Positions 8,881-25,509 of a stretch of DNA of 64,000 nt are shown piece by piece. The first letter of the stretch is position 1. Every line of letters begins with the position of its first letter. The notes below the pieces were generated by a model. The model was not told where the DNA came from and searched no databases. It saw only the letters and a program-made list of their open reading frames with translations. The position numbers were made by a program, and so were the translations under genes. Source of the stretch: Geobacillus subterraneus. GTDB lineage: Bacteria > Bacillota > Bacilli > Bacillales > Anoxybacillaceae. The stretch lies in NCBI RefSeq assembly GCF_001618685.1, contig NZ_CP014342.1:2046001-2110000 (forward strand), given 5' to 3'.

Positions 8881-8939
8881 ATAGCGATAGGTAATAGTCA
8901 CCCTCGGCGTTACCCGGAGGGGCTATTTTCCCCCGCTTC

Positions 8940-8973
8940 ACACCGTGCGTGCGAGTTTCCCCGCACACGGCGT
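8940..8973 (-). ncRNA. Group II intron domain V (catalytic hairpin)
   Basis: A 34-nt hairpin about 60 nt before the intron 3' end. The outer helix pairs ACGCCGT with ACGGTGT, and a GAAA-type tip closes GTGCG-side pairs, which matches the conserved domain V shape. The catalytic triad position appears to be CGC rather than AGC; this reading depends on my manual alignment. Confidence 0.75.
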
Positions 8974-9011
8974 TCCATCGAGTACCTCGGTTACTAATCA
9001 CGCCCAAGACT

Positions 9012-10829: not shown

Positions 10830-11669
10830 TCTGTCCTGTAGGTCGCGGAACTCTTGTTCCGTCCTCGGGCTGATTAGTTCTTGAAACGTGTTTGTGATAA
10901 TATCAAATCCTTTCTTTCAGGATTTGCATTATACACGTTGTTAGTCAGTTTCGCTCACCGAAACCCTTACGGATTTCCTCACGGCTTCCTAATCGACGTC
11001 TGGGGTTGGTAACCTAAAAGGTACTCGACTATGCCCCTTCGCTCAGCAGGCATTACCCTGCTTCATCACTACTACGGGCTGCTGCCCCATCCCTTCAGCA
11101 GTCATTTCCTACTGCTTAGTGACATCGGGGTGCGCACCCCTTATCATCCACTGGGATGGTTCACCTGTACCGCATCACCTATCCTTACATACTCCCTTAG
11201 GCTCCGCCTCTGACCCGTCAGCCGCCTTTTTGTCCGTGGTTGGAGGACTCAAGGCAAAGATCCTCTACGGGATCGATCCAGATCGAGCAAACACGAATAC
11301 TCGATCCAGGGCTGAACCTCTTTTAGGAGGTGAACACCTTCTTTATTCGGTGTTCCACGCCTTACGAGCCGTACTTCCGGCGGTTCGTTCCAACGCTTCT
11401 GCGTTCTCTAGCCATAGGAGTTTTATGGACCCCCGGCTACTTCGCTAACCACTTCACAGGTCCGCTTTTCGCCGTCCTCTCCGAGTTTCGCACAGTAATG
11501 TTGCGCACCATTACCGCACGTCGGGGTATTAGGGCAGGAATGCCAACCTTCATTCCTGTCTTGGACTCTCACCAAGCTCTCGGTGATGCAGTTAGGACTG
11601 ACTGTGTTTCAGTCCCGCTAACTTTTCGTATGGTGTTTCCACCATACTTGGGTTAGCAACAGGTCACAC
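10830..11669 (-). ncRNA. Group II intron RNA, domains I-III (non-coding 5' part)
   Basis: About 840 nt between the 5' splice site and the intron ORF with no credible gene; short frames here are chance. It should hold domain I with the exon-binding sites. A possible EBS1 for the exon end GAGCATG is the complement of AAACACG near 11289-11295, which pairs only with several G-U wobbles, so I do not assign it. Confidence 0.7.
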
Positions 11670-19713: not shown

Positions 19714-20673
19714 TTACCGTTTTCCTTTCACATATGGCGTGCCGGCCGCTTTCGGCGCTTCGGCACGGCCGATAAAGCCGGCGAGCGCTAAAATCGTGAG
19801 CACATAAGGGGCAATGAGCAAATACACTGTCGGAACGTTTTCCAAAAACGGGATTGTTTGTCCAACGATGCTTAAACTTTGCGCCAATCCGAAAAACAGC
19901 GCCGCCCCCATCGCGCCCATCGGATGCCATTTGCCAAAAATCATCGCCGCAAGCGCCATAAATCCGTGCCCGGAAATCGTTGCATGGCTGAAGTCGCGGG
20001 AGATGATCGTCGCATACACCGCACCGCCTAGGCCGCCGAGCGCTCCGCTGATCATGACGGCGATATAGCGCATTTGGGCGACGTTGATCCCCATCGTATC
20101 GGCCGCCATCGGATGTTCGCCAACAGCGCGCAGCCGAAGGCCAAACGGAGTTTTATAAATGACGTACCAAGAAACGAATGCCAAAAGAATCGCGATATAC
20201 GACGGCGCGTACGCATTGGAAAACAGCAGCGGGCCGATGACCGGAATATCGCTTAACACCGGCACGTCAATTTTGTCAAATCCGACTTGAATTTGATCTG
20301 TTTGCCCTTTGCCGTACATTTTTTTCACCAAAAACAGCGACAAGCCGAGGGCTAAAAAGTTGATCGCCACCCCGCTGACGACTTGATCGGCGCGAAACGT
20401 CACCGAAGCGACCGCATGGAGCAAAGAAAACAATGCGCCGACCACGATGGCTGCCACCAAGGCGAGCCATGGCGTCAACGGGCCGAGCTGGTCGGCAAAC
20501 GTTAGATTAAAAACAACGCCGATAAACGCACCGATGATCATCAGCCCTTCAAGCCCGATGTTGACAACGCCGGACCGTTCGCTAAACACGCCGCCAAGCG
20601 CGGTGAAAATAAGGGGAGCAGCAAAGAAAATCGCTGTCGGGATAATCGTTTGCAGTACGTCATACACGTTCAC
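19714..20673 (-). CDS. nupQ: Nucleoside ABC transporter permease NupQ
   Basis: A 319-aa multi-spanning permease of the BMP-linked (RbsC-like) ABC family, with about eight hydrophobic segments. Typical motifs are FSERSGVVNIGLEGLMIIGAF near residue 30 and RAVGEHPMAADTMGI. It starts at the base after the nupP stop, so it is tightly coupled. With NupP it forms the channel through which nucleosides, probably guanosine and others as in B. subtilis NupNOPQ, are imported. It ends the operon at a terminator. Confidence 0.9.
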   Translation of the reverse strand: MNVYDVLQTIIPTAIFFAAPLIFTALGGVFSERSGVVNIGLEGLMIIGAFIGVVFNLTFADQLGPLTPWLALVAAIVVGALFSLLHAVASVTFRADQVVSGVAINFLALGLSLFLVKKMYGKGQTDQIQVGFDKIDVPVLSDIPVIGPLLFSNAYAPSYIAILLAFVSWYVIYKTPFGLRLRAVGEHPMAADTMGINVAQMRYIAVMISGALGGLGGAVYATIISRDFSHATISGHGFMALAAMIFGKWHPMGAMGAALFFGLAQSLSIVGQTIPFLENVPTVYLLIAPYVLTILALAGFIGRAEAPKAAGTPYVKGKR

Positions 20674-21720
20674 TTACTCCGCCCCCTTTTGCCAACGAGA
20701 TAACAGCCAGCGAATCATATAGCTGGATGCGACAAAGAAAATAATAAGCGCGATAATAATATCGACGAGTTCCGTTGGCACGCCGGCGCCCGAGGGCATC
20801 TCAAGCGACCCGACTTTCAAGGCGCCGAACAGCAACGCGGAAAGCAAAATGCCAAACGCGTTGTTGCCGCCAATTAAGGCAACAGCAATGCCGTCAAACC
20901 CAAGGCCGGTAAACCCGGCTTTCGTCGAAATATTGCCGAACGTGCCGAGCCCTTCCATCGCCCCGGCCACGCCGGCAAAGGCGCCGGAGATGACCATGGC
21001 TAAAATGATGTTGGCGCGCACGTTCATGCCGGCATATTGTGAGGCATGCTGGTTGAATCCGACCGCCCGCAGCTCAAATCCTTTCGTCGTTCGTTCAAGC
21101 AAAAACCACATGACAAACGCGGCGGCAATGGCGATCAAAATGCCGTAGTGCATCGTCGAATGGTACGTGATGGACTCCAAAAATTCCGATTGGAGCGAGG
21201 CGCTTTCCTTGACCGGGTCGGACTTGAACCCTTCATCCGACAGCACGGAACGGATGATGGCGTTCGTCACGTGCAAAGCGATATAGTTCATCATAATCGT
21301 AATAATGACTTCATGCACTTTTACGTACGCCTTTAATACGCCCGGAAGCAATCCCCATAGCGCCCCGGCTAAAGCGGCGGCCAAAATGGCTAGCGGCAAA
21401 TGGATGATCTTCGGCAAGTCGAAAGATACGCCGACCCAAACGGCGGCCAGCCAGCCGACGATGAGCTGACCCTCGACCCCGATGTTAAACAAACCGGTGC
21501 GAAAGGCAAAGGCTACCGCCAGCCCCGTTAAAATGTAAGGCGTCGTCTGGCGGATCGTTTCCCCGATGTAATACGCATCTCCAAACGCCCCGTATATGAG
21601 GGAGCCAAAACCGGCGACCGGATTGTAGCCGCTTGCGAGCATGACGACCGAGCCGGCGATCATACCGAGCAAAACGGCCAACAATGGAATCAAAAACTGC
21701 TGGAGACGATTCGACCTCAT
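20674..21720 (-). CDS. nupP: Nucleoside ABC transporter permease NupP
   Basis: A 348-aa multi-spanning permease homologous to NupQ, with family motifs FRTGLFNIGVEGQLIVGWL and RAVGFNQHASQYAGMN. Its start overlaps the nupO stop by 4 bp (ATGA), a sign of translational coupling. Basic residues (MRSNRLQQ) precede the first membrane helix, fitting a cytoplasmic N-terminus. Confidence 0.9.
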   Translation of the reverse strand: MRSNRLQQFLIPLLAVLLGMIAGSVVMLASGYNPVAGFGSLIYGAFGDAYYIGETIRQTTPYILTGLAVAFAFRTGLFNIGVEGQLIVGWLAAVWVGVSFDLPKIIHLPLAILAAALAGALWGLLPGVLKAYVKVHEVIITIMMNYIALHVTNAIIRSVLSDEGFKSDPVKESASLQSEFLESITYHSTMHYGILIAIAAAFVMWFLLERTTKGFELRAVGFNQHASQYAGMNVRANIILAMVISGAFAGVAGAMEGLGTFGNISTKAGFTGLGFDGIAVALIGGNNAFGILLSALLFGALKVGSLEMPSGAGVPTELVDIIIALIIFFVASSYMIRWLLSRWQKGAE

Positions 21721-23246
21721 GACGACACACCTGCTTCCTTCCGTTTGCTTCCAGCCATCAGCAGTCCGAGTTCTTGTTCCGTCGTTTCTTTCGGATCAAC
21801 GATGGCGACAATTTTCCCTTCATAAATCACGGCGATCCGGTCGCTGACGTTCATGACCTCATCAAGCTCAAACGAAACAAGCAACACCGCTTTTCCCCGG
21901 TCGCGCTGCTCGATGAGCCGCTTATGGATGAACTCAATCGCTCCGACATCAAGCCCCCTTGTCGGCTGGGCAGCAATCAATAAGTCCGGATTGCGGTCGA
22001 CTTCGCGGCCGATGATCGCTTTTTGCTGGTTGCCGCCGGATAGCGCCCGCGCTTTCGTATATTCGTCCGGCGTGCGCACGTCAAACTCGCGGATGAGCTG
22101 ACGGGCTTTTTCATAAATCGCTTGAAAGTTTAAGATGCCCCGTTTCGAATACGGCGGCTTATAGTACGTTTGCAGCACCATGTTTTCGCCGATCGGAAAA
22201 TCAAGCACAAGCCCGTGCTTATGCCGGTCTTGTGGAATATGGCCGATGCCGGCTTCAATGATTTGGCGCGGCGGCAAGTTCGTAATCTCTTGGCCGTTTA
22301 GCCTAATCGTTCCTGATTCCGCCTTAATCAGGCCGGTTAGCGCTTCAATCAGCTCGGTTTGCCCGTTGCCGTCGACCCCGGCGATGCCGACGATCTCACC
22401 GGCGCGCACCGTCAAGTTCAAGCCGTTGACCGCCGTGACCCCTCGGGCGTCTTTGACGATTAAGTTTTCGATTTCGAGCACCGGCGTTCCCGGTTCGGCC
22501 GGCCGTTTTTCGGTCGTAAACTGCACCTCGCGGCCGACCATGAGCGCCGCCAATTCGTTCGGATTCGTTTCGGCAACGTTAAGCGTTGCGATTCCTTTGC
22601 CGCGGCGGATGACGGTGACGCGATCGCACACTTCCATAATTTCTTTGAGCTTGTGCGTAATTAAAATAATCGATTTTCCTTCGCGGACAAGCGTACGCAT
22701 AATTTCGATGAGCTCGCGGATTTCCTGCGGCGTTAAGACGGCTGTCGGTTCGTCAAAAATCAAAATGTCAGCGCCCCGATAGAGCGTCTTTAAAATTTCG
22801 ACGCGCTGCTGCATGCCGACGGAAATATCGGCGATTTTCGCTGTTGGGTCAACCGCCAGTCCATACCGCTCCGACAGTTCGCGCACTTCTTGTTCAGCTC
22901 GCTTCATGTCGATCGTTCCCGTCCGTGTCGGCTCGCTGCCTAAAATGATGTTTTCCGTCACTGTAAACGTATCGACGAGCATAAAGTGCTGGTGCACCAT
23001 CCCGATGCCAAGGTCGTTGGCGACATTCGGGTCGGTGATGCGCACCGGCTTCCCTTTGACGCGGATTTCCCCGCCATCCGGCTGGTAGAGGCCAAACAGC
23101 ACGTTCATCAGCGTCGATTTACCGGCGCCGTTTTCGCCAAGGAGGGCATGAATTTCCCCTTTTTTCACCTGCAGCGTAATGTTGTCATTGGCGACGAACG
23201 TGCCGAACACTTTGCGAATATTGAGCATTTCAATTACATATTCCAA
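21717..23246 (-). CDS. nupO: Nucleoside ABC transporter ATP-binding protein NupO (two ABC domains)
   Basis: An ATPase of about 509 aa with two fused ABC domains, as in sugar/nucleoside importers. Domain 1 has Walker A GENGAGKST; domain 2 has the degenerate GVDGNGQTE and the signature LSGGNQQKAI. Starts: a GTG at 23255 would leave no spacing from AGGGAG, so the TTG at 23246 (eight bases after AGGGAG) is preferred; it gives a protein beginning MEYVIEMLNI, like B. subtilis YufO. The gene lies after a terminator and a large structured RNA element that separate it from nupN. Confidence 0.9.
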   Translation of the reverse strand: MEYVIEMLNIRKVFGTFVANDNITLQVKKGEIHALLGENGAGKSTLMNVLFGLYQPDGGEIRVKGKPVRITDPNVANDLGIGMVHQHFMLVDTFTVTENIILGSEPTRTGTIDMKRAEQEVRELSERYGLAVDPTAKIADISVGMQQRVEILKTLYRGADILIFDEPTAVLTPQEIRELIEIMRTLVREGKSIILITHKLKEIMEVCDRVTVIRRGKGIATLNVAETNPNELAALMVGREVQFTTEKRPAEPGTPVLEIENLIVKDARGVTAVNGLNLTVRAGEIVGIAGVDGNGQTELIEALTGLIKAESGTIRLNGQEITNLPPRQIIEAGIGHIPQDRHKHGLVLDFPIGENMVLQTYYKPPYSKRGILNFQAIYEKARQLIREFDVRTPDEYTKARALSGGNQQKAIIGREVDRNPDLLIAAQPTRGLDVGAIEFIHKRLIEQRDRGKAVLLVSFELDEVMNVSDRIAVIYEGKIVAIVDPKETTEQELGLLMAGSKRKEAGVSS

Positions 23247-23272
23247 GCCATTCACTCCCTACTTCGGCAAGG

Positions 23273-23390
23273 TCAAAATCACAAAATGAGAGGCGGCAGC
23301 ATTTAGATAGATGCAACAAAAAAGCGGATCGTATCGTTGCGGAACAAATCGCTCCCTATATATAGGCCGCCCTTCATTTCGTGATTTTGA
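23273..23390 (-). ncRNA. Candidate structured RNA element between nupN and nupO (25-bp closing helix)
   Basis: Arms 23273-23297 and 23366-23390 are inverted repeats of each other at 22 of 25 positions. Read as minus-strand RNA, two of the three differences become G-U pairs, leaving one A-C mismatch; read as plus-strand RNA they would be A-C mismatches. Inside are a self-complementary CCTATATATAGG and possible small hairpins (GCAAC/GTTGC, GCAT/ATGC). It begins where the nupN terminator T-tract ends and stops 26 nt before the nupO start. Role unknown; see findings. Confidence 0.6.
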
Positions 23391-23420
23391 AAAAGGCTAG
23401 CGGCACGCACTAGCCTTTTT
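23390..23420 (-). terminator. Rho-independent terminator after nupN (internal to the nup operon)
   Basis: A perfect 11-bp stem AAAAAGGCTAG/CTAGCCTTTTT with a 9-nt loop; the T run is in the descending arm. It lies 9 nt past the nupN stop and would make nupOPQ depend on readthrough, giving excess binding protein over transporter. Confidence 0.8.
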
Positions 23421-23429
23421 CCACTTTCC

Positions 23430-24524
23430 TTATTTCACCGTTGCGGCAAATTGTTCGTATTCTTTCCGGTTCGTCGGCACTTTCACTTCACCGTTAACGA
23501 TTTTTTCCTTCCATTCGTCAACCGCCTTTAGCACATTGTCCGGGATGTTGTCTTGCGTCGGAGCAATGCCGACCCCGTTTTCTGGCAAGCCGTACTCAAT
23601 CGTTTGGCCGCCTGGGAAGTCGCCTGCTTGCGCCCGTTTGGCAACGTCATAAACGGCCACATCGACCCGTTTCACCATCGAGGTGAGCGTCACGTTGTAC
23701 GTTTTGTCGCCGATTTTCACTTCGCCTTCCGGAGCTTGGTCTTTATCAACGCCAATGACCCAAATTTCGCGGTTCGGATCTTTCTTCTTCAAATCTTTCG
23801 CTTCCGAGAAGACACCGTTTCCAGTCCCACCGGCCGCGTGATAGATAATATCAATGCCGGACGCGTACATGCTCGAGGCGATCGCTTTCCCTTTATCCGC
23901 TTGGTCGAAGGCACCGGCATATTGCACTTTGACAGTCGCTTTCGGGTTGACCGCTTTCACGCCGGCCCGGAATCCGCTTTCGAACTTCTCAATCAACGGA
24001 ATTTCCATCCCGCCGACAAAGCCAATTTTATTCGTTTTCGTCATCAATCCGGCAACAACACCGACAAGAAACGACCCTTCGTGCTCTTTAAACGTGATGC
24101 TGGCAACATTCGGCGCATCAACGACCGTATCAACAATGGCAAAATGTTTTTTCGGATTTTGCTCGGCGACTTCTTTCACCGCATCGCCCATCAAATAGCC
24201 GATGCCGTAAATCAAATCAAAATCGCTGCGCACGAGTTTGTTTAAGTTTGTCACATAGTCGGCATCGCTGGCGGACTGCAAGTAGTCATAGCCGCCGCGC
24301 CCTTTCTCAAGGCCGTTGTCTTTGCCGAACTTTTGCAGCCCTTCCCAAGCTGACTGGTTGAACGATCTGTCGTCAACGCCGCCTACGTCCGTGACCATAG
24401 CAACGCTGAACGTATCTTCCTTATTGCCCCCTGCATTGTCGCCTCCTTGGCCGCCGCAGGCAGAAAGCAGCGTACCGGCAGCGAACAAAACGGAGAGCGC
24501 CCATCCGAATCGCTTTTTCATCAT
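23430..24524 (-). CDS. nupN: BMP family nucleoside-binding lipoprotein NupN
   Basis: A 364-aa substrate-binding lipoprotein of the basic membrane protein (BMP/Med) family. It has a signal peptide of basic residues (MMKKRFGW), a hydrophobic core and a lipobox LSAC with Cys23 as the lipid site. Mature domain motifs include [19 protein letters not shown] and the late [13 protein letters not shown] proteins bind nucleosides outside the membrane and deliver them to the ABC permeases encoded by the next genes. GGGGG lies before two adjacent ATGs (24524 and 24521). It is separated from nupO by a terminator. Confidence 0.93.
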
Positions 24525-24603: not shown

Positions 24604-25335
24604 TTAAAAACCGAATCGTTTCCGCATGACGTGGAAGCTGAACTTGTCGGAGCGGAAATAGTTCGTTGAGTAAAAAATCGGCTCATCGTTTTTATCGAAA
24701 TGCATTTGTTTGAGCACGAGCAAGGCCGTTTCCGGGTCACATTGCAAAATCGGCGACACTTTTTCGTGATAGCCGAGCGGCTCAATGCGCGCGATGGCAT
24801 AGGCAATATCGCGGTGCGCCTGATTGTGCAAGTTTTCAAACAGCGACTCATGCTCATACGAAATGCCTTTCGGCAAATATTTGCACAAAATTTTATCAAG
24901 GCAATAGACGACCGGCTCTCCATCGGCGGTGCGCACCCGCTCGATCAGCAAAATCTCATCGTCCGGGCGGCATTGAAAGCGGCGCATATCGTCTTCCGTC
25001 GGCTGCTGAATGGAGGAAGACAAAAAAATCGTCCCCGGCTTGCGCCCGGCTTGGCGGATCATGTCGGTGACGCTTGTGAGCTGCTCAATGCCGGACGTAA
25101 ACAGCGGACGGGCATTGACAAACGTTCCGACGCCATGGCGGCGGATGATGATGTTTTCCTCCTCAAGCACCCGAAGCGCCTCCCGCAGCGTCGCTCGGCT
25201 GACCCCGAGCTGCTTGGCGAGCTCAAACTCAGACGGCAACTTTTGCCGTTCTTTGTATACTCCGGTTTCAATATCGTGTTTAATCCGGTCGATGACTTGC
25301 AGGTAAAGATGGCGGCTGTCTGATTTGATTGACAT
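24604..25335 (-). CDS. ymfC: GntR/HutC family transcriptional regulator (YmfC)
   Basis: A 243-aa regulator: an N-terminal winged helix-turn-helix ([19 protein letters not shown], then [18 protein letters not shown]) and a C-terminal UTRA ligand-binding domain from about residue 80. A longer frame exists to 25392, but the ATG at 25335 follows GTGGAGG at eight bases and gives the known family start [13 protein letters not shown]. It lies between spoIIIE and the nup genes; in B. subtilis ymfC also follows spoIIIE. It probably controls the nup operon downstream, but this is inferred only from adjacency; the ligand is unknown. Confidence 0.88.
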
Positions 25336-25509
25336 GACAACGTCCTCCACGTTCTGCATTTCCCCTGAGATCAGACCTCTGACATTAGACATATAACCTT
25401 TTTGAGATTACTATATCATTTTTTACCGGTCAAATAAATAGGGTCAATCAATTTTTGTCGAAAAAAAAGAAACAGGATTGGCAACGCTTCCAATATGATA
25501 TACCGTTTG

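Follow-up and report, generated by a model that had tools for sequence, protein, structure and literature searches.

The closest described counterparts of the element considered here are the SRPS stem-loops of the cip-cel operon. According to PMC10311766, a small upstream hairpin and the A-T bottom of the large stem-loop in IR4 place the cut upstream, and the downstream transcript is abundant; most cip-cel cuts, according to the same paper, fall downstream of the stem-loop, and most other stem-loops of this operon and genome go with the upstream transcript. In C. cellulolyticum, 27 of 33 processing-site stem-loops go with 3' ends (PMC4423207), and a reference on subtilis (PMC9931155) is cited beside the cip-cel precedents. 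Among the open-access texts consulted on nupNOPQ/yufN-yufO, RNase Y/III stem-loops, Rend-seq, and nucleosides and repeats in Geobacillus, no description of the hairpin reported below was found.

Within a 64,000-nt stretch of the Geobacillus subterraneus genome (hereafter the window), the spacer between nupN- and nupO-like genes carries what sequence comparison identifies as a conserved intercistronic RNA hairpin present in the nupN-nupO transcripts of Bacillus relatives; it reaches up to ~25 bp, and its loop is usually short (Table 1). The names nupN, nupO, nupP and nupQ follow the first-pass annotation and gene order and are putative, as is the substrate; all NCBIfam matches listed for the five encoded proteins were below cut-off (for the ATPase, the best 25 of 190; for the regulator, the best 25 of 28). 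A NupR motif is given in a figure of PMC9430930. For nupO, the ORF list placed the start at GTG 23255, and the conserved start region of relatives suggests TTG 23246. A hairpin resembling the small CCUUGC/GUAGGG hairpin upstream of nupO was also folded in L031, L032, L034, L036, and L044. Some genomes of the order (e.g., G062, G105, and G138) have two nupN-like genes ~2.5 kb apart.

Table 1. Features of the nup locus, with positions counted from the first nucleotide of the window
Feature	Position	Strand	Basis
GntR-type regulator gene upstream of nupN	24604..25392	-	sub-cut-off GntR models; NupR-like by position only
nupN-like lipoprotein/substrate-binding gene, upstream of hairpin	23430..24524	-	NCBIfam ABC_BMP_B6, 82.6 bits, cut-off of 400 not reached
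Terminator-like hairpin of nupN (T1), directly adjoining the conserved hairpin	23389..23421, arms 23389-23400/23410-23421	-	inverted repeat and fold; putative terminator function
5' arm of hairpin	23366..23390	-	fold and inverted repeat; homologous arm in relatives
Loop insert, very probably what internal deletion has left of a dispersed Geobacillus MITE-like repeat	23298..23365	-	loop lengths in relatives and alignment to repeat
3' arm of hairpin	23273..23297	-	fold and inverted repeat; homologous arm in relatives
Small hairpin CCUUGC/GUAGGG overlapping the nupO Shine-Dalgarno	23257..23272	-	predicted folds
nupO-like ABC ATPase gene, downstream of hairpin	21717..23246	-	NCBIfam ABC_ATP_B6, 491.3 of 670, sub-cut-off
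nupP-like permease gene	20674..21720	-	sub-cut-off NCBIfam
nupQ-like permease gene	19714..20673	-	sub-cut-off NCBIfam

The two arms of the hairpin are 25 nt each, 88% complementary as DNA and 68 nt apart. In the minus-strand (sense) RNA, 24 of the 25 positions pair (22 Watson-Crick, 2 G-U) and the last is an A-C mismatch, in agreement with the near-perfect inverted repeat described by the first-pass annotation, whose distance of 93 bp is right from start to start but not as the spacing between the arms. The same annotation had read selection on the sense RNA from a strand asymmetry in pairing, which in this single sequence is trivial (24 versus 23 of 25 pairs on the plus strand, because the sense A-C mismatch turns into G-U on the other strand) and too weak an argument, but a G-U bias does hold over many species, as detailed below. 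The element adjoins the terminator-like hairpin of nupN, and 26 nt separate its end from the TTG start of nupO, both as previously claimed. Folding of the minus strand from 23240 to 23420 yielded -72.1 kcal/mol with a z-score of -6.39 (0 of 200 shuffles equally low), a value that does not refer to the conserved hairpin alone since the folded stretch takes in the nupN terminator-like hairpin. When the arm pattern was searched with up to three mismatches, the matches in the window were the two arms only (0.00 expected), and the whole genome returned the same two sites only.

A covariance model built for the hairpin (R1) found the site in 36 of 41 genomes of the family at E <= 0.01, and the five misses were the three genomes with loop inserts (G000, this genome; G005; G008) and the two whose left arm is interrupted by an insert (G006 and G013). 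The context was checked for 34 of these 36 genomes and was nupN-nupO in all of them. In a sample of 299 genomes of the order, 61 had a match at E <= 0.001, 59 of which lay between nupN and nupO and spanned 15 families; in the stretch around the remaining two matches (G092 and G120; E 6.8e-4 and 7.6e-4), neither nup gene was present. Likewise, the hairpin lay between nupN and nupO in all 83 loci checked, with L213, L214, and L216, which lack nup genes nearby, left out. Since the arms occupied one site in their own genome and the model one site per relative genome, save for a second weak match in G032 (L216, E 0.005), the element is not a scattered transposon-like repeat, the outcome that would have spoken against the first-pass annotation. 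These counts indicate that the hairpin is single-copy and specific to the nupN-nupO junction. The genome and locus sets overlap (e.g., G008 is L030, and L043 and L153 are the same stretch).

The genome search with R1 scored few candidates per genome under strict filters and therefore missed diverged copies. The nupN gene was present in 214 of the 299 genomes, and the region downstream of it was searched again without filters in 40 sampled genomes that had no model match at the nup locus (39 without any match, and G120 with its match elsewhere). A sense-strand match at E <= 0.01, with E calculated for 57,590 bases, was obtained in 12 of the 40; among the other 28, L242 matched on the other strand only, and the remainder were unmatched at this threshold or too diverged. 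In public genomes, 71 nupN loci were collected, 67 of which had nupO within 1200 nt and served as the spacer set. The hairpin, nearly always with a short loop, was found in 60 of the 67 spacers by patterns that, like the structure used for covariation, were written after sight of the sequences. The seven uncounted spacers comprised one with a loop insert (L030), one with an interrupted arm (L033), and five (L091, L092, L094, L097, and L098) in which the hairpin was not found and no insertion explains its absence. Taken across the order, the matches indicate that the hairpin is widespread. Its upper stem differs by clade, namely GGCGGC/GCCGCC in Geobacillus, GUUACA/UGUAAC in Anoxybacillus, and GUAGAA/UUCUAC in Neobacillus, and the stem is retained while the loop ranges from 3-4 nt to 196 nt.

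Several further observations were made on these spacers. Spacers of the Rossellomorea and Neobacillus types (e.g., L048, L051, and L053; L073, L076, and L083) have a small GC hairpin and a U-run past the hairpin, then GGTCTGACCTC, then nupO. An apical CCGG(C/A)CC is common to L184, L186, L187, L192, L194, L195, L199, L201, L203, and L206, and in L194, judged by eye, it could form pairs with GGCUGG, the 5' arm of T1. When the spacer remainder past the first hairpin was compared with shuffles, z <= -2 was obtained in 27 of the 36 testable spacers among the 40 sampled genomes, 59 of 67 public-genome spacers, and 77 of 85 model-hit spacers; the test is rough, as the first hairpin was removed by a crude rule, and it is no main argument here.

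Covariation was evaluated on an alignment of 51 distinct sequences (A1), from which L079 and L090 (long loops), duplicates, L030 with its insert, and L033 with its interrupted arm were left out. Across the 25 pairs, 90.0% of cells were paired, a share that is favoured because the structure was drawn after seeing the sequences. Both sides had changed in 17 of the 25 pairs, a number reached by 7 of 500 shuffles, and the 198 doubly changed cells were reached by none of 500. The covariation score was 0.452 versus 0.080-0.136 in slid controls (0 of 500 shuffles), and RNAalifold, run unaided on the same alignment, recovered 17 pairs, 13 of them with double changes. Furthermore, G-U combinations outnumbered A-C ones (106 versus 28 cells). 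The same trend appeared in 45 rows from outside the family (72 versus 10 of 854 cells) and, after removal of six rows contained in A1, in the remaining 39 (57 versus 10 of 740 cells), although it was the covariance model, with its own preference for G-U over A-C, that selected and aligned these rows, and single cells do not represent independent events. In a DNA palindrome, G-U and A-C should be about equally frequent, so the excess supports selection on the sense RNA. The stem core AAnUGAA/UUCAnUU was near-invariant, and the stem outside it changes freely. Collectively, the alignments indicate that the hairpin is maintained as a paired structure with the bias expected of a sense transcript. 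The arms and compensatory changes that the first-pass annotation proposed to look for in related nupN-nupO spacers are thus present, and its suggestion of selection on the sense RNA is upheld by the covariation and G-U excess over many species.

The 68-nt interior has a different history. A DNA search with the site gave matches in all 14 genomes of the genus (own one included), split into pieces in 12 of them. The distance between intact arms was 9-10 nt in nine of the 14 genomes, 68 nt in this genome and G005, and 196 nt in G. thermodenitrificans DSM 465 (G008), and the left arm was split by an insert of ~400 nt in G006 and in G. zalihae (G013, L033). The latter insert (L220 and L221) contains palindromic stretches (CCCCCACTTCGC...), is perhaps IS-derived, and represents a natural disruption of the stem. 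The arms of the three loop-insert genomes are identical save one base (C-G to U-G), and the nupN and nupO trees group these genomes as a clade (support 0.837 and 0.642) with the insert-free G004 as sister, which fits one insertion. The hairpin is older than the insertion because it is present in insert-free relatives.

The insert of G. thermodenitrificans belongs to a dispersed repeat with matches in 12 of the 14 genomes, at up to 26 per genome; three were found in this genome (G000:C1:29291, 1026703, and 1794904), and only the query itself in G. thermodenitrificans. Loci L101-L125 carry the repeat, and in eight of these 25 a pattern search recovered copies 242-245 bp long whose ends are the inverted repeats CTATATAGATGC/GCATCTATATAG, one copy having a variant end. 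The repeat is thus ~244 bp long, with 12-bp terminal repeats and internal palindromes, and its size, ends, and copy number suggest a MITE, although no target duplication was recognised. Alignment of the 68-nt loop to the repeat scored 42 at the end of one copy and 31-32 at the next ones, versus a maximum of 28 in 500 letter shuffles. Matches of the loop elsewhere in its own genome were weak (nine besides itself, E 0.068 to 2.86), and two of them (E 0.126 and 0.82) adjoin repeat copies, but the best (E 0.068) does not. Given the alignment scores against shuffles and the own-genome matches beside repeat copies, the interior is very probably a decayed repeat remnant outside any conserved fold. 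In this strain, a MITE-like repeat very probably entered the loop and later shrunk to 68 nt while the stem was kept.

These results bear on the proposal that the whole 118 nt might form a ligand-binding element, which is not supported: most genomes of the genus (nine of 14) hold only 9-10 nt between the arms, and the interior here appears to be a decayed dispersed repeat. The intact arms around loop inserts in three clade genomes likewise argue against a ligand domain. A riboswitch was rejected as the leading reading because the interior is a probable repeat remnant and the loops, which vary in length and sequence, show no conserved ligand-binding core. Consistent with the earlier statement that no known riboswitch is recognisable, Rfam gave no match to the hairpin at gathering score; the only matches that reached it anywhere in the window were two group II intron domains, both at other sites. 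Those two domains (8881-8975 and 11422-11570, minus strand; RF00029 and RF02004) may belong to one intron. At nine relatives' loci, searched up to E 10, Rfam returned 14 matches, all below gathering score, a few of which overlap the spacer (e.g., L038 4062-4130, 28.4 of 45 bits). In summary, the first-pass annotation recognised the RNA nature of the element correctly but counted a repeat remnant as belonging to the structure. The comparison instead identifies a real, conserved, locus-specific RNA structure of an ordinary kind, old and widespread rather than a 118-nt local element.

Regarding function, we consider it somewhat more probable than the opposite that the hairpin is an intercistronic processing/stability element setting the level of nupOPQ mRNA relative to nupN. 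RNA polymerase would read partly through the nupN terminator, and an endoribonuclease (RNase Y or RNase III) would cleave the resulting transcript next to the paired hairpins. Left at the 5' end of the nupOPQ mRNA, the long stem and its A-U bottom would then shield that mRNA from 5'-3' decay by RNase J. As a result, one promoter could deliver binding protein and transporter in different amounts. The binding protein is encoded by the first gene of the operon and is usually needed in excess. Stabilisation of the mRNA after processing, one of the roles originally suggested, appears to be the best reading. As in SRPS-type elements, the stem-loop lies in an intergenic region of one operon and is conserved in orthologous operons, and its paired structure is under selection in the sense RNA. 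Moreover, the stem was kept despite a large loop insert, as would be expected if the helix rather than the loop has the role. The majority modes of cip-cel and C. cellulolyticum stem-loops, the terminator-like hairpin of nupN itself, and the 4-6 U in which several hairpins end speak against this processing/stability reading, as do the five hairpin-free spacers of 67 and the 28 unmatched genomes of the 40 sampled. The near-invariant core also goes beyond the requirements of a simple protective stem and would allow for recognition by some factor.

The main rival, which we regard as unlikely, is that the hairpin is another intrinsic terminator, a weak one that stands in tandem with that of nupN, and so sets the transcription reaching nupOPQ. 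An intrinsic terminator has a GC-rich stem base followed by a U-run, on a stem usually shorter than this hairpin. By eye, the base of the long stem here is A-U, with an A-tract/U-tract containing 4-6 U within it; the hairpin directly follows the terminator-like hairpin of nupN, several of its homologs end in 4-6 U, and some clades (Rossellomorea and Neobacillus) add a small hairpin and U-run downstream. However, the base beside the U-run is rich in A-U, Geobacillus stems have no U-run after them, and the stem exceeds the usual terminator length. A terminator scan of four loci did not call the hairpin, but it left T1 of the window uncalled as well and so does not discriminate. It is quite improbable that the hairpin instead forms the 3' end left after processing of nupN read-through RNA, or that it gives rise to a small RNA. 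Protection of 3' ends is the commoner mode among processing-site stem-loops (PMC4423207), but nupN already has a 3' hairpin of its own, and in L043 an insertion parts that hairpin from the conserved one, which stays ~30 nt from nupO.

A regulated element, dependent on a protein, antitermination, or a ligand and tied to nucleoside supply, is improbable as well. Locus specificity, the near-invariant stem core, and the apical CCGG(C/A)CC shared by several copies would agree with it, but the loop is unconserved across clades and tolerates a large insert, the stem outside the core changes freely, and no conserved unpaired ligand pocket was seen in the aligned relatives. One form of such control, offered here as a long shot, is an RNA element devoted to the control of nucleoside uptake in Bacillus relatives, in which a factor would read the AAnUGAA/UUCAnUU core and decide between cutting and stabilising nupN-nupO read-through according to nucleoside or growth state; if so, binding protein and transporter would be controlled separately from one promoter. 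An inverted repeat with a conserved core might also be taken for a palindromic DNA operator or for a dispersed repeat, a reading that is scarcely credible given arm spacings from a few nt to 196 nt, more G-U than A-C, and one copy per genome. The operator is disfavoured by the spacing variation and the G-U bias, and the dispersed repeat was rejected for the arms (one site per genome, save the second weak G032 match) but accepted for the loop insert.

The persistence of the hairpin in 15 families suggests that RNA-level control under long selection may set how much binding protein is made relative to transporter, and the relatives offer natural loop-insertion and arm-disruption variants. The locus also serves as a warning that a mobile-element remnant in a hairpin loop can mimic a large structured RNA.

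Compared with known systems, the hairpin shares with riboswitches the position of a structured RNA before a transporter gene, but it has no conserved unpaired core, bears a loop insert in three genomes, and gives no Rfam match at gathering score. Like MITE/REP elements it is a long-armed inverted repeat, with a loop insert that is probably MITE-derived, whereas the hairpin itself is single-copy. With intrinsic terminators it shares a hairpin with an A-tract/U-tract base, but its base is A-U rich, its stem is long, and it follows another terminator-like hairpin. The greatest resemblance is to the SRPS stem-loops of cip-cel in Ruminiclostridium cellulolyticum, especially IR4, which are also intercistronic stem-loops within one operon. 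According to PMC10311766, IR4 combines a small upstream hairpin with a large stem-loop having an A-T bottom, which resembles the arrangement here; the operon and organisms differ, the stem core is near-invariant at the nup locus, and processing at the nup hairpin is a prediction.
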